Assembly: GCA_902776565.1 (NCBI GenBank)
Contig: CACYQN010000021.1
Location: 1-64,000 of the forward strand
Reading direction: 5' to 3'
Origin: an uncultured Bacteroidia bacterium
GTDB taxonomy: Bacteria; Bacteroidota; Bacteroidia; Bacteroidales; ML635J-15
Length of the DNA stretch: 64,000 nucleotides
The translations under genes were made by a program, and so were the position numbers. Positions 37,932 to 49,604 of the stretch are shown here, one piece after another; the first letter of the stretch is position 1; the number at the start of each line of letters is the position of its first letter. Below the pieces are notes generated by a model, which had not been told where the DNA came from, searched no databases, and saw only the letters and a list, made by a program, of their open reading frames with translations.

Positions 37932-38107
37932 AAAATATGTACATATTGGTTATGACGCTATAAAAATTGTTCACTGCGTTTCACGAGTTAGAGATTACTC
38001 ATGATATTTCGTGAATTAAAGGTTGCTGATAATCATTAAAGTGAATAATTTCAGTTTAATGTCAAAATGATTTTATGCAAATATCAAAAGGTTTAATGTT
38101 ACATACA

Positions 38108-40577: not shown

Positions 40578-41963
40578 TTATTTTATCATCGCCTTTGCTT
40601 CGTTTAGGAATTCCTCGTCGATGCCAAAGATTTCGGCGATAGTGAGACCTTCGGTCGGGACTTCCTCTTCGGTGGTGCGCACGAGCGAATAATCCATATA
40701 CCTATTGATATTTTCAGGAGTTACCTTTGTGCCTTCTGGAACTTGCAGTCCCTTTACTCTCAGTCGGTTGCATTGTGCGGTTATGCCGTTGTAGTGGGTT
40801 GTGATGAGGCTTCGGGTTGCGTGTCGCGAAAGAATTTTTATGAATGCGTTGACCAATGCACGGCCTTCGCTTGGATTGGTGGTGCGGGCAAGCTCATCGA
40901 CGAGGGCAAGAATCTTCTGTCCCGACTTTACTGCTTTGAGTATCTTGTCAATGTTGAGCATTTCGATTGCAAAAGACGATAATCCATTTACTTCCGATTG
41001 GGCATCGCCTATGCTGGTCATTATTTCCTCAACAGGTGCAATTTCAGCACTTTCGGCTGGTACGAAGAAACCAAACTGGAACATCATCTGTATGAGCGAC
41101 ATAGTCTTGAGCACTACCGTTTTCCCCGACATATTTGCGCCAGTGATTAGGTTTGGAGTGTCGTCAAAATGGATGTTGATGGGTTGGAATTCTCCGCCGC
41201 GTTCCTTTAGCGATTCTGCAACAATTGGATTGAATGCACCCTTGATGTTTGTTTCGGTTGCAGAAATCGATGGTTTGCACAATTTGAAGTCGCGGGCGAG
41301 CAGAGCCTTCGCTAGAAGCAAATCCAAGTAGGCGAGCTGGTCGTAGTTGGCTTGGATGGCATTGCTGTAGTTGCGTAGTTTCTCGGACAGATGTTCGCGT
41401 ATGCGGTCCTCGATTTCGATGCATTCGAGGCGGATGCGTTCGGCTTTTTCGTTTTCATTGGCATTTTTGGCGATGTCGTACTCTTTGCGCAGAGTTGCCA
41501 GTTTTTCGTCGTAAGCCGAGTATATGTAGAAACTTTGTATTCCGTTGTGTTCGGGGTCAAGTATTTCGACTATGGGGTTGAGGTCGTGGAACGGCAGTAT
41601 GTCAATTTGTGTGTCTTTTATCAATTTGCAGATGTCGCGCGAAACCATGCAGAAATTTTTCACCTCGAAAAGTTCAATGTCGTCAAGAGTCTGTGCCGAA
41701 CGCAAATTGTGTATGGTCTGGTGTATGTCGTTCAGGCAGTACAGGCGGTGTTGAATTGCGACGATGCTCTTGGCGTTTTCGCGGTCGCCTACGAAACTGG
41801 TGAAAAATTCAAGGGTGTCGAGTTCCATTTTTAGCTCGAAGTCGCTTGTGATGAAATGCTGAGACAGCAGTCGTTTACGCCCTGCCGACGAGCAGATTTC
41901 CATTTTCTCGTATATGAAGCGGAGTCCGCGATTTTCGTTGATATGATATTTGAATGTTTGCAT
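40578..41963 (-). CDS. MutS-family ATPase without mismatch-binding domain
   Basis: A 461-residue protein. The N-terminal ~250 residues are helical core/lever-like. The C-terminal domain has Walker A G-A-N-M-S-G-K-T (~residue 283), L-A-L-V-D-E-L-A-R-T-T-N-P-S-E-G (Walker B and signature) and L-I-T-T-H-Y. Such truncated MutS proteins include MutS2-like proteins and the KamC-type reactivase of lysine aminomutase; no kam genes are in view. Function uncertain. It is convergent with thiF, with a 4-nt gap. Confidence 0.75.
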   Translation of the reverse strand: MQTFKYHINENRGLRFIYEKMEICSSAGRKRLLSQHFITSDFELKMELDTLEFFTSFVGDRENAKSIVAIQHRLYCLNDIHQTIHNLRSAQTLDDIELFEVKNFCMVSRDICKLIKDTQIDILPFHDLNPIVEILDPEHNGIQSFYIYSAYDEKLATLRKEYDIAKNANENEKAERIRLECIEIEDRIREHLSEKLRNYSNAIQANYDQLAYLDLLLAKALLARDFKLCKPSISATETNIKGAFNPIVAESLKERGGEFQPINIHFDDTPNLITGANMSGKTVVLKTMSLIQMMFQFGFFVPAESAEIAPVEEIMTSIGDAQSEVNGLSSFAIEMLNIDKILKAVKSGQKILALVDELARTTNPSEGRALVNAFIKILSRHATRSLITTHYNGITAQCNRLRVKGLQVPEGTKVTPENINRYMDYSLVRTTEEEVPTEGLTIAEIFGIDEEFLNEAKAMIK

Positions 41964-42304
41964 TGCTAATGTTTCTATGGGCTAACGCCCGTTTCTAAGT
42001 TTTTAGTTGTTTTTAAGTTTGAATGACTCCGTCGTTTCTAGGTTTTAAGTTGTTTCTAAGTTTTAATGGCTGCGCCGTTTCTATGTTTCTAAGTTCTTGA
42101 GTTTCTAGATTGTACATGCATCTTTCAAATGATTTATTAAGAGTGTCCTTGCGGACAGAAATCTGACAAATACTTTTCAAATTTAACAAATTTGCATAAT
42201 CTGTATTGATTTGTAAGATTTCTCGCGTAGCGACTTTTATTTCCGTTAGAGTGTTAGCGCTAACGCTTGTGCATCTTGTCAGATTGTCCATTGTTAATTG
42301 TCCA
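41964..42304. repeat. Repeat-rich intergenic region
   Basis: The left part (~41975-42085) is made of TTTCTAAG/GGGCTAACGCCCG/GGCTGCGCCGTT words shared with 21940-22140. The right part holds the palindrome GTTAGCGCTAAC (42249-42260) and filler of the type ATTGTCCATTGTTAATTGTCCATTATTC. A 99-codon frame spans it, but it translates the filler and is not called. Confidence 0.5.
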
Positions 42305-42917: not shown

Positions 42918-43008
42918 GAAAAGTCCATAAGTTCGGGAATAAAAGTTCCACAAGTTCGGGAATGAAAGTTCCATAAATTCGGGAATGAAAATCCCATAAG
43001 TTCGGGAG
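42918..43008 (+). repeat. 23-bp tandem repeat array, upstream copy
   Basis: Three complete 23-bp units (42929-42951, 42952-42974, 42975-42997), a partial unit at 42998-43008 and a degenerate partial before 42929. The consensus reads A-A-R-TTCGGGAATRAAARTTCCAY; each unit can form a short GGAA..TTCC or GGGA..TCCC hairpin. The units abut with no spacers. The array ends 14 nt before the -33 element of the ATPase promoter. Confidence 0.9.
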
Positions 43009-43078: not shown

Positions 43079-44353
43079 ATGAGCGATTATAAGGAACGAA
43101 TTTTTGACCAGTTGCTAAGGAGAAAACTGGAAGGTATGGGTGCTGTTCTAATCGAAGGTCCGAAGTGGTGCGGAAAGACAACCTCGGCGGAACAGCAGGC
43201 GGGAAGTGTCTTGTATATGAACGACCCTAAATTGTTCGCCCGTAACCTTCAGCTTGCCGACCAGGACCCGCAGATGCTGCTGGAAGGAGCCACTCCCCGT
43301 CTTATCGACGAATGGCAGGAGGCTCCAAAACTATGGGATGCCGTGCGCTATGAAGTTGACAGGCGTAATGCCGAAGGTCAGTTTATCCTTACTGGCTCGG
43401 CCGTTCCTGCCGATATGAGTCAAGTTCACCACACAGGTACTGGGCGGATTGCGCGTATGCAGATGCGTACGATGAGCCTTTGGGAGTCGGGCGAATCCAC
43501 AGGAACCGCAAGCCTTGTTTCGTTTTTCGCAAATGCCGCCAGCAACGCCGCCACAATGGACAAGACTTTGTCCGAAGTTGCCTACCTTGTATGTCGTGGC
43601 GGTTGGCCTCGTGCCGTTATGCAAAAGTCGTCGGTGGCATTGGACAGGGCATACGACTATCTGAACGCCATAGTTACAAACGATATTTCGCGTGTTGATG
43701 GTGTAAGCCGCGACACTGAGCGTGCCCGCCGTCTTATGCGTTCGTATGCTCGATTCCAAGGGGCACAGGCTCCGCTCTCAAAAATCCGCGAGGATGTCAT
43801 TGCCGGCAGCGACAGTTCGTTCGACGAGAAAACACTCTCTTCGTACCTGAATGCCCTGAAAAAGATGTTTGTTATCGAGGATATGCCGTCGTGGAATCCG
43901 AACCTCAGGTCGAAAGCAGCTATACGGTCTTCAGAAACTCGCTATTTTACCGACCCGTCAATTGCCGCTGCTGCTTTGGGCATTGGACCCAAAGACCTTA
44001 TGAACGACCTTGAAACCTACGGACTGCTGTTTGAGGCAATGTGTGTTCGTGACTTGCGCATCTACGCACAAGCAATAAATGGTCTTGTATATCATTACCG
44101 CGATTCCGATGGGCTGGAGTGCGACGCTGTAATCCATTTGCGCAATGGCGACTACGGACTTGTTGAGATAAAACTGGGCGGAGACCGTCTGATAGAGGCT
44201 GGTGCAGTGTCGTTGCATAAATTGTGCGACAAGATTGATACCGACAAGATGAAGGAGCCTTCGTTCTTGATGGTTCTTGTAGCGACTGGCGACTATGTAT
44301 ATCGCCGTACCGATGGCGTATGGGTTGTACCTATTGGTAGTTTAAAACCATAA
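43079..44353 (+). CDS. AAA_14/DUF4143 ATPase, copy B, flanked by 23-bp arrays
   Basis: About 424 residues. N-terminal Walker A G-P-K-W-C-G-K-T-T (~28), Walker B P-R-L-I-D-E-W-Q, sensor I-L-T-G-S-A. The C-terminal DUF4143 region ends with L-E-C-D-A-V-I-H and G-L-V-E-I-K-L-G, a D...ExK nuclease-like core. The family is abundant in Bacteroidota, but its role is unknown. The gene lies between two arrays of the same 23-bp repeat in the same orientation. The ATG at 43079 is preferred to a TTG at 43052, which is inside the -7 box. Confidence 0.88.
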   Translation: MSDYKERIFDQLLRRKLEGMGAVLIEGPKWCGKTTSAEQQAGSVLYMNDPKLFARNLQLADQDPQMLLEGATPRLIDEWQEAPKLWDAVRYEVDRRNAEGQFILTGSAVPADMSQVHHTGTGRIARMQMRTMSLWESGESTGTASLVSFFANAASNAATMDKTLSEVAYLVCRGGWPRAVMQKSSVALDRAYDYLNAIVTNDISRVDGVSRDTERARRLMRSYARFQGAQAPLSKIREDVIAGSDSSFDEKTLSSYLNALKKMFVIEDMPSWNPNLRSKAAIRSSETRYFTDPSIAAAALGIGPKDLMNDLETYGLLFEAMCVRDLRIYAQAINGLVYHYRDSDGLECDAVIHLRNGDYGLVEIKLGGDRLIEAGAVSLHKLCDKIDTDKMKEPSFLMVLVATGDYVYRRTDGVWVVPIGSLKP

Positions 44354-44442: not shown

Positions 44443-44571
44443 AAATTCGGGAACAAAAATCCCATAAATTCGGGAACAAAAATCCCATAAGTTCGGGAAC
44501 AAAAGTTCCACAAGTTCGGGAGTGAAAGTTCCACAAATTCGGGAGTGAAAGTTCCACAAATTCGGGAATAA
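44443..44571 (+). repeat. 23-bp tandem repeat array, downstream copy
   Basis: Five full units (44443-44465, 44466-44488, 44489-44511, 44512-44534, 44535-44557) and a partial unit of 14 nt. Same consensus and orientation as the upstream array, with unit-to-unit differences (GAACA/GAGTG, ATCCCAT/GTTCCAC). It ends 31 bp before the stop of the convergent mannosidase gene. Confidence 0.9.
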
Positions 44572-47474: not shown

Positions 47475-47710
47475 AGAAAATAATAAACTCGGCAGTTGCG
47501 CAGGTTGCTGTCGAGTTTCTTTGTGTATGGTGCGACCTCGCTGAGTTCGTTTTGTTTTGTATTGTATGTGTTTGTGTTATAAATATTTGACCTCTCCGAT
47601 GTCTGCTGACGAGATGCACGTTCTTGACGACCTCAGCGAGGTCGTATGTTTATAGAAAATTCATCCGATAACAGCGACCTCGGAGAGGTCGTATAAAATC
47701 GGTAGAAATT
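47475..47710. repeat. ~235-bp direct repeat, left copy, with GACCTC palindromes
   Basis: Begins AGAAAATAATAAACTCGGCAG and ends GGTAGAAATT. It matches 49373-49604 almost throughout. It contains an AACTCGGCAG...CTGTCGAGTT hairpin and four GACCTC-N3-GAGGTC palindromes, two of them degraded in this copy. The pair encloses ATPase copy C and its 33-bp arrays. Confidence 0.9.
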
Positions 47711-47795
47711 TGCGCTGGCGGAACATTTTGCCAAAACAAAAATTGCGCTGGCGGAACATTTTAGTAAAATAAAAATTGCGCTGGCGGAACATTTT
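47710..47795 (+). repeat. 33-bp repeat array, upstream copy
   Basis: The 20-bp core TTGCGCTGGCGGAACATTTT occurs at 47710-47729, 47743-47762 and 47776-47795, exactly 33 bp apart. The 13-bp linkers are A-rich and similar to each other. The array ends 10 nt before the -33 element of ATPase copy C. Confidence 0.92.
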
Positions 47796-47805
47796 TTTTA
47801 TTTTT

Positions 47806-47837
47806 CTTGTGTATTATTTTGATTAATAGTATTTTTG
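47806..47837 (+). promoter_or_regulatory. Promoter of ATPase copy C
   Basis: CTTG (47806-47809), 20 nt, TATTTTTG (47830-47837), then the ATG 21 nt later. Layout matches ATPase copy B. Confidence 0.7.
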
Positions 47838-47858
47838 CGAAAAATTAAAATTACTGGC

Positions 47859-49196
47859 ATGGACGAGTTTGTTTTTAGACGTAAAATATACGACAGGATG
47901 CTTCGGTGGAAGCAGGAATCGAAAGGCGAAACAGCGCTTTTGGTTGAAGGACCGAGGCGTGTCGGTAAATCAACAGTCGTTAGGCTTTTTGCCGAAAACG
48001 AGTACAAAACTCGTGTGATAATTGACTTTTCTAAAGCTTCGGATGCTGAAAAGGCCTTGTTCGACGACTTGTCGGATATGGATTTTTTCTTTTCGCGGTT
48101 GAAGGTCTTGAAGGGTGTCGATTTGTACGAAAGGCAGTCGGTGATTGTGTTTGATGAAGTACAGAAGTTTCCCGAAGCTCGTCAGGCGATAAAGGCTTTG
48201 GTCGAGGACGGACGGTACGACTATATTGAGACTGGCTCTCTCATTAGCATTCATCAGAATGTGGAAAATATCATAATCCCGAGCGAGGAGGAATCTGTCA
48301 ATATGTACCCTATGGACTACGAGGAATTCAGGTGGGCGCTTGGCGATACTGTTTCGATTGGGCTTATGCGCGAGGCTTTTGCAAAGGGCAAAGGCTTTGG
48401 CGATGATGTGAACAGGAGACTTATGCGCGATTTTCGTTTGTATATGCTTGTCGGCGGAATGCCACAGGCGGTAAGCAAGTACATCGAAACCAAGGATTTT
48501 GCGAAAGTAGATGCCGTAAAACGAAGTATAGTGCGCCTTTATCGCGACGATTTTCGCAAGTTCGACAGGACAGGCAAGGCTCAGGATATGTTCATGGCAA
48601 TTCCTGCCGAATTGTACAAGAATGCAAATCGCTATCAGACAACTACTGTCATTGAAAAGACAAGGGCTGAAACGGTGTCGGAACTTATATATCTTATGCA
48701 GGACAGCAAGACGGTAAATGTCGCCTATCATGCCAACGACCCGAATGTCGGGCTAGGCTTGACCGCCGATAAGTCGGCCTACAAGATGTATATATGCGAT
48801 ACGGGGCTTTTTGTTACGATGGCGTTCTGGGACAAGTCGTTTTCAGAAAATATCATATACAATAAATTGTTGAATGACAAACTTGCTACTAATTTGGGCT
48901 ATGTGTATGAAAATATTGTGGCTCAGATGCTTATAACATCAGGCAATAAGTTGTTCTACTATACTTTCCCCGATGGGAACAAGCATTTGTACGAGGTTGA
49001 TTTCCTTTTGTCGCGCGGCTTTAAGTTGTGGCCGGTGGAGGTAAAATCGGAAGGTTACAGCACGCACAAGTCGCTTGACGAGTTCTGCACTAAGTTTTCG
49101 TCGCGCATTTCTAACCGTTATTTAGTATATACCAAGGATTTGCGCAAAGATGGCGCGACAATAATGTTGCCTGTATATATGGTTGGATTGTTGTAG
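47859..49196 (+). CDS. AAA_14/DUF4143 ATPase, copy C, flanked by 33-bp arrays
   Basis: About 445 residues. Walker A V-E-G-P-R-R-V-G-K-S-T (~29), Walker B V-I-V-F-D-E-V-Q-K-F, sensor Y-I-E-T-G-S-L, and a C-terminal E-V-D-F-L-L-S-R-G...W-P-V-E-V-K nuclease-like motif. Same family as copy B but diverged. The ATG at 47859 is preferred over a TTG at 47835 that lies within the -7 box. It sits between matching 33-bp arrays and an outer ~235-bp duplication. Confidence 0.88.
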   Translation: MDEFVFRRKIYDRMLRWKQESKGETALLVEGPRRVGKSTVVRLFAENEYKTRVIIDFSKASDAEKALFDDLSDMDFFFSRLKVLKGVDLYERQSVIVFDEVQKFPEARQAIKALVEDGRYDYIETGSLISIHQNVENIIIPSEEESVNMYPMDYEEFRWALGDTVSIGLMREAFAKGKGFGDDVNRRLMRDFRLYMLVGGMPQAVSKYIETKDFAKVDAVKRSIVRLYRDDFRKFDRTGKAQDMFMAIPAELYKNANRYQTTTVIEKTRAETVSELIYLMQDSKTVNVAYHANDPNVGLGLTADKSAYKMYICDTGLFVTMAFWDKSFSENIIYNKLLNDKLATNLGYVYENIVAQMLITSGNKLFYYTFPDGNKHLYEVDFLLSRGFKLWPVEVKSEGYSTHKSLDEFCTKFSSRISNRYLVYTKDLRKDGATIMLPVYMVGLL

Positions 49197-49203
49197 TTAA
49201 AAT

Positions 49204-49256
49204 TTGCGCTGACGGAACATTTTGCTGAAATGAAAATTGCGCTGACGGAACATTTG
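49204..49256 (+). repeat. 33-bp repeat array, downstream copy
   Basis: Two units, cores at 49204-49223 and 49237-49256, 33 bp apart, reading TTGCGCTGACGGAACATTT. The GGC of the upstream array is GAC in both, so the two sides have drifted as groups. It begins 7 nt after the ATPase stop codon. Confidence 0.9.
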
Positions 49257-49372
49257 TGTTTGTAAGGTGCTGTAAAATAGTGTTTTGTGTGTAAGATTAA
49301 TTCCTTGCTCGACGTAGGCTCTTGTCTGCGTCGAAGCAAATCCAAGGCTCTGCCTTGAACAATATCAATAAT

Positions 49373-49604
49373 AGAAAATAATAAACTCGGCAGTTGCGCA
49401 GGTTGCTGCCGAGTTTTTTTGTATGGTGCGACCTCGCTGAGGTCGTTTTGTTTTGTATGTGTTTGTGTTATAAATATTTGACCTCTCCGAGGTCTGCTTG
49501 GCGAGATGCACATTCTTGGCGACCTCAGCGAGGTCGGATATTTATAGAAAGGTTGCCTTCCGATAACAGCGACCTCGCTGAGGTCAAATAATTGGTAGAA
49601 AATT
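49373..49604. repeat. ~235-bp direct repeat, right copy
   Basis: The better preserved copy. AACTCGGCAG and CTGCCGAGTT form a perfect 10-bp stem followed by TTTTTTT, a good terminator hairpin. Four intact or near-intact palindromes GACCTC-N3-GAGGTC follow (loops GCT, TCC, AGC, GCT). Between the 33-bp array and this copy (49257-49372) I see no gene. Confidence 0.9.

Follow-up and report, generated by a model that had tools for sequence, protein, structure and literature searches.

The window studied here is a stretch of 64,000 nucleotides from the genome of an uncultured Bacteroidia bacterium (G000; other G numbers denote relatives, from 26 genomes of the genus). It encodes two ATPases with AAA_14 and DUF4143 domains, designated copy B and copy C, and only these two were found; a nearby third P-loop gene (40578-41963) is MutS-like. 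The copy C locus (47475-49604, all features on the forward strand) consists, in this order, of a 235-bp repeat, three 33-bp units, a promoter, the ATPase gene, two 33-bp units and a second 235-bp repeat. The same order had been proposed in an earlier note on this DNA and is borne out by the coordinates.

The upstream outer repeat (47475-47710) lies outside the ATPase unit and contains a terminator-like hairpin and GACCTC..GAGGTC palindromes. It is followed by the 5' array (47710-47808), whose three units, with the core TTGCGCTGGCGGAACATTTT, start at 47710, 47743 and 47776, an exact spacing of 33 bp. A predicted promoter of the Bacteroidetes type (47807-47837), with TTG at 47807-47809 and TATTTTTG (TAnnTTTG) at 47830-47837, abuts this array on its downstream side and precedes the copy C gene (47859-49196), which encodes a protein of 445 aa. 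The 3' array (49204-49269) has two 33-bp units with the core TTGCGCTGACGGAACATTT, starting at 49204 and 49237. The right tail of the unit (49257-49290) is common to G010, G009 and, in a different context, G023, and the right end lies about 35 bp beyond the last 33-bp unit. The gap between that last unit and the downstream outer repeat (49373-49604) is about 103 bp. On one side the site is bordered by a GH2 mannosidase gene and on the other by a GH3-family gene (Pfam GH3, the acyl-adenylating family). The inner arrays differ as groups, GGC versus GAC, as had been noted earlier (TTGCGCTGGCGGAACATTTT three times versus TTGCGCTGACGGAACATTT twice). Their common core, TTGCGCTG(G/A)CGGAACATTT, occurs five times at up to two mismatches in the 3.36-Mb genome, always at copy C, and this five-fold clustering at a single locus is not due to chance.

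Copy B (43079-44353), assigned to the same family (PDC-S01) by domain and profile match, has a comparable arrangement that the earlier note missed: repeat comparison revealed 23-bp units (AAAAGTTCCATAAGTTCGGGAAT) in a 5' array (42919-43007) and units of the identical type in a 3' array (44443-44568), all on the forward strand. G009, G021 and G011 have no copy B beside their GH2 gene. A 43-bp tandem repeat (CCGTTTCTAAGTTTTAAGTTG..) is present at 41989-42095, upstream of the MutS-like gene.

The copy C protein contains the Pfam domains AAA_14 and DUF4143 and matches the PADLOC profile PDC-S01 with an E-value of 1.7e-95 (the PDC-S01 profile figures were 1.7e-95 and 2.7e-65). Walker A and B and the PD-(D/E)XK residues E351, E379-x-D381 and E394-x-K396 are invariant in alignments; among 191 homologues, all have the Walker A motif and 183 the nuclease motif. 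No convincing sequence homologue of a solved structure was detected. An AlphaFold2 model built with 45 homologues had a mean pLDDT of 89, and its top PDB folds in Foldseek were archaeal Orc1/Cdc6 proteins on origin DNA (2QBY, 2V1U; E 2.4e-6, global TM-score about 0.3), with MuB filaments also among the matches. The C-terminal domain has the order alpha-beta-beta-beta-alpha-beta, as in PD-(D/E)XK nucleases, and when folded alone gave weak matches to McrC, Bax1, Can2, Cas4 and R2 endonuclease (best E 2.4e-3). From these models, copy C is predicted to be an AAA+ ATPase of Orc1/Cdc6-like fold whose C-terminal part is a PD-(D/E)XK nuclease domain.

The outer 235-bp repeats

The earlier note proposed that the module had inserted into or duplicated its target, with the 235-bp copies as its ends, or that it could be lost by recombination between them. 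These copies do bracket copy C symmetrically in G000, and the terminator-like hairpin is present in both. However, the description of the two as matching nearly base for base was overstated: 47475-47710 and 49373-49601 match at 87% over the whole length, with 216 of 238 aligned bases in agreement and 19 gap columns. Gaps apart, the two copies are 91% identical and thus differ by 9% plus the gaps, whereas the downstream copy is 97% identical to its orthologue, the single copy of G021. This relative has one 235-bp copy at the copy C site, no array and no ATPase. A relative with a single 235-bp copy and no ATPase had been suggested as a check and does exist, but on its left this copy is flanked by the sequence that borders the downstream copy in G000, and it is therefore not a scar of recombination between the outer copies. 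Moreover, the copy C of G010, which is 98% identical and adjoins the same GH3-family gene, has 4+3 inner units and zero 235-bp copies. Since the repeats are absent there, since the flank in G021 is the wrong one and since the identities are 91% versus 97%, the outer repeats mark neither the limits of the module nor the route of its loss. We rejected them as module ends, and consider it highly improbable that they arose by its insertion and serve as its loss route. The broader proposal, that the module is gained and lost and can be lost through recombination between flanking repeats, was upheld.

Fragments of the 235-bp element were found elsewhere in the genome (G000:C6:207400-208109, C6:178514-179636, C28:13354-13546 and C15:56319-56388). 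They consist of the terminator hairpin and the GACCTC/GAGGTC palindromes, some are paired 0.5-1 kb apart, and ATPases are not nearby. The element might have proved, as the earlier note allowed, to be a high-copy dispersed repeat with no link to ATPase genes; pieces do occur away from such genes, but they are only pieces and not high-copy. The outer repeats probably stem from an earlier duplication of a composite made up of dispersed palindromes and are incidental to the unit. In G021 (G021:C15), about 900 bp at the copy C site hold a different small lipoprotein-like gene.

Gene-specific arrays with a fixed spacing

The family has about 27 genes in G000 and from 0 to 53 in each relative of the genus. 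We examined the 400 bp before and the 400 bp after each of 87 family genes, counting a shared direct repeat at a score of at least 16. In 51% of the 87 genes the two flanks had such a repeat in common, versus 2.8% of mismatched family flank pairs and 3% of other nearby genes. An upstream tandem repeat was present in 79% of these genes versus 10.5% of controls, and either an upstream tandem array or a both-side direct repeat in 81 of the 87 genus homologues (24 of 27 in G000); the downstream array is absent in about half of the family.

The unit sequences vary by gene (TTGCGCTGRCGGAACATTT, AGTAAAACTTGTAA, GTCGTGCAGAAAAATGT, AAAACATTTTGAGGATTTATGCA and GTCCAAGTTCCCAAG, among others). The constant feature is the spacing, which is 33 bp or multiples of it, or 23 bp in the copy B-like subfamily. 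For 99 relatives from GTDB genomes and viral contigs, the mean autocorrelation at lag 33 was 15.95 of 18 versus a background of 9.1; the strong relatives sampled were mostly 57-72% identical to copy C. Strong arrays had a period of exactly 33 bp in 61 of 73 cases, whereas only 10 of 178 control genes had an array of any period, three of them at 33. In finished records the best upstream period was 32, 33 or 66 in eight of eight, some with two units only and modest scores; these were from Agathobacter, Segatella (two), Collinsella, Glaesserella, Fusobacterium, a Bacteroides pMMCAT plasmid and an Acinetobacter plasmid, and represent Bacteroidota, Bacillota, Actinomycetota, Pseudomonadota and Fusobacteriota. 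Of 99 homologues, 73 have a TAnnTTTG box, which in most cases begins 27-41 bp ahead of the ATG.

Unit identity was 0.86-0.87 between genes whose proteins are more than 85% identical and at chance level below 65%. Across the 26 genus genomes, the copy C unit occurs only at copy C (G000, G010) and in a solo array of G009; dispersed regulatory targets of copy C were sought and not found, either in its own genome or in these 26. As judged from these comparisons, the repeats belong to the gene: the phase is kept and the letters change with the gene, the pattern that a co-evolving DNA-binding protein would leave.

Movement and loss of the unit

Near-identical family genes at different places have only the array, the gene and, where present, the second array in common. 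For example, the family designated C24 occurs in seven genomes, in six of them at 91-99% nucleotide identity, and the contexts differ; in pairs whose contexts differ, homology ends at the first iteron, 124-131 bp upstream of the ATG, and on the other side 1-14 bp past the stop codon. In the C29 family the unit ends are two copies of a 33-bp imperfect palindrome. The sole clean insertion junction was found at a site that is empty in G000 and G022 (CAGAAGACTACCTCTGCG) and filled in G010 and G019, where it reads CAGAAGACTA-TATGTTGCC...array...gene...TAAATCGGGTTA-ACCTCTGCG. The insert is exactly 1,548 bp with a target duplication of 0-1 bp, and a duplication of at least 2 bp was not seen at this junction. 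Between the unit ends the ATPase gene stands alone, and no transposase was found there. Inverted matches between flanks were low for most copies in a comparison run without a control, the C29 unit being itself an imperfect palindrome.

Several relatives retain parts of a unit. At the copy C site, G024 is empty, with an 88-bp spacer, and G009 has a solo three-unit array with the unit's right tail kept. At a C1-type site, G022 has a solo array in which the left flank of the 5' array continues into the 3' array, the product expected from recombination between these two arrays. G020 has the same insert as the 1,548-bp site with most of the gene deleted and the iterons and 3' end retained. A second site exists in three states, intact (G021), remnant (G009:C24, with a pair of iterons at 33-bp spacing and the final codons) and empty (G024). 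Besides the intact/empty pair there are scars at four sites, two of them solo arrays (G009, G022), of the kind that recombination between a 5' and a 3' array would leave, and two internal deletions (G020, G009:C24). This pattern indicates that loss runs through the inner 33-bp arrays and not through the outer repeats. In principle, solo arrays could be pre-insertion targets instead of scars; for copy C alone, this is made less likely by the right tail in G009, which derives from the element.

Genome comparison shows that the arrays are private and phased, that they move together with the gene, that one insertion is exact and that loss is associated with the arrays. Movement need not be active: there is no transposase in the unit, inverted matches between flanks are low for most copies and target duplication is not clear, and the same patterns could result from passive transfer by illegitimate or homologous recombination. 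Many of the relatives are draft MAGs, in which array regions are prone to misassembly. Other candidate evidence was set aside. A tree of the 80 best relatives implies only five phylum changes (minimum three) and MAG bins may be contaminated, and we therefore did not use cross-phylum transfer as proof of mobility. An intergenic stretch of about 147 bp in the window (~37955-38102) was rejected as a clean empty site: G019 has another ATPase unit there and the flanks are 97% identical, with unclean junctions. On pMMCAT plasmids no clean empty site was found.

In G010:C87 and G019:C164, two different ATPase units lie tail to tail, 23 bp apart, one inserted directly behind the other's stop codon. 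In G011:C42, one ATPase locus is present in two 100%-identical inverted copies about 107 kb apart, identical over the entire compared stretch, which suggests either that a long stretch has been duplicated in inverted orientation or that the assembly is at fault.

Possible nature of the unit

Several known systems share single features with copy C. In REPtrons, genes for RAYTs (REP-associated tyrosine transposases) are bracketed by cognate REP palindromes; the RAYTs are Y1 transposases and the REPs are dispersed. The copy C unit is likewise a single gene bracketed by its own, gene-specific and presumably recognized repeat. However, no Y1-type (HUH) transposase is present in the unit, which instead encodes an AAA+ domain plus PD-(D/E)XK, and its repeats are direct, have a 33-bp period and are not dispersed. 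Archaeal orc1/cdc6 genes beside ORB repeats and the rep genes of iteron plasmids encode an AAA+ (or Rep) protein next to the phased repeats that it binds. Copy C likewise encodes an AAA+ protein next to phased repeats, which it would bind, and Orc1/Cdc6 is its best structural match, but the copy C family differs in its many mobile chromosomal copies per genome, its nuclease domain, its often two-sided arrays and the fast turnover of its repeats. RptR, a 9-kDa repressor of a defence island, recognizes a set of three direct repeats within its promoter (9-bp repeats with a 6-bp palindrome; PMC12255303); the likeness lies in direct repeats at a defence-locus promoter that are, in the copy C family presumably, bound by the locus's own product, whereas the repeats of the copy C family are 33-bp-phased, can be two-sided and mark the unit that moves. 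BrickBuilt MITEs of Porphyromonas gingivalis (PMC4596501) are also Bacteroidales elements with an internal minisatellite, but they have terminal inverted repeats, and no ATPase is mentioned in that paper. Unlike classical DDE or composite transposons, the units of the family are without a transposase gene and, at the one clean junction, without a target duplication of at least 2 bp. REPtrons, initiator-origin pairs and repeat-controlled defence loci each have single features in common with the copy C unit, which matches the full definition of none.

The protein family itself has been catalogued. PDC-S01, an ATPase fused to PD-(D/E)XK, is reported as the fourth commonest defence candidate in prokaryotes (PMC12988326), and in rumen genomes no single locus is reported to be more frequent (PMC13356809). 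By profile copy C belongs to this family and has the same ATPase and nuclease domains; however, PDC-S01 is listed as a lone defence gene, whereas copy C has arrays and moves with them. In the open-access papers searched, nothing was found that ties PDC-S01, DUF4143, AAA_14 or COG1373 to repeats, arrays or mobility. What is new relative to these papers is the arrangement, a gene with private phased arrays that moves with them as a unit without a transposase.

From the sequence comparisons, we think it probable that copy C belongs to a large family of mobile units, each with a single gene, and that the protein encoded by such a unit binds the phased iterons of that unit. Such a unit would comprise the 5' iteron array, the promoter, the AAA+ ATPase/PD-(D/E)XK gene and, in some members, the 3' iteron array. 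The Orc1/Cdc6-like AAA+ protein may assemble cooperatively on its own 33-bp-phased array and, since the array abuts or overlaps the promoter, protein bound there would repress the gene. The nuclease might then act on DNA that is marked by, or lacks, the array, an activity that could serve to copy the unit, to let it home or to cut competitors. More tentatively, the family might be a new class of selfish DNA without a transposase, in which an origin-recognition-like AAA+ protein with a nuclease is addressed by private phased iterons that are also the unit ends. If so, one of the most abundant prokaryotic 'defence systems' would largely consist of such elements.

That PDC-S01 instead acts against phages or plasmids, with its array as an autoregulatory operator that silences the nuclease until infection, with fast gain and loss as in other defence genes and with passive mobility, appears somewhat unlikely to us. 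In its favor, the PADLOC match is strong (E 1.7e-95) and the family is reported to rank fourth among candidates (PMC12988326), the arrays mostly adjoin the promoter, AbiE, type III restriction-modification and HipA are neighbors in some records, and RptR offers the precedent of a defence-island repressor on three direct repeats (PMC12255303). It leaves unexplained why arrays also lie past the stop codon, why they form the ends of mobile units and why a genome can have up to 53 copies. The defence and mobile-unit readings are not mutually exclusive. Integrated replication modules, that is, remnants of small replicons in which an initiator-like AAA+ gene sits with its own origin repeats, would account for the archaeal Orc1/Cdc6 folds on origin DNA, for a gene beside its own repeats and for the copies on plasmids. 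We regard this explanation as improbable, since there are dozens of chromosomal copies per genome, the unit contains no further gene for replication, its protein has a nuclease domain instead of being a plain initiator, and the plasmid copies are spread over many plasmid types. Short phased repeats and AT-rich flanks would also be expected of unrelated minisatellites or transcribed CRISPR-like arrays that neighbor ATPase genes by chance, but enrichment over controls, a 33-bp period fixed across phyla, repeats tied to the gene lineage and the few units per array leave this with almost no likelihood.

For the mobile units that we favor, private arrays, co-movement and scars provide a testable handle on what the PDC-S01 protein binds and does, and they raise the question of whether large surveys of bacterial immunity count mobile elements. 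Repeats that diverge gene by gene at a fixed spacing also offer a natural series of matched protein-DNA specificities.

Relatives of copy C are present in viral-contig collections and on pMMCAT plasmids, which are carried by many Bacteroidales species. In distant members from different phyla, a core like GAAAA(A/G)TGT is seen inside otherwise differing 33-bp units.
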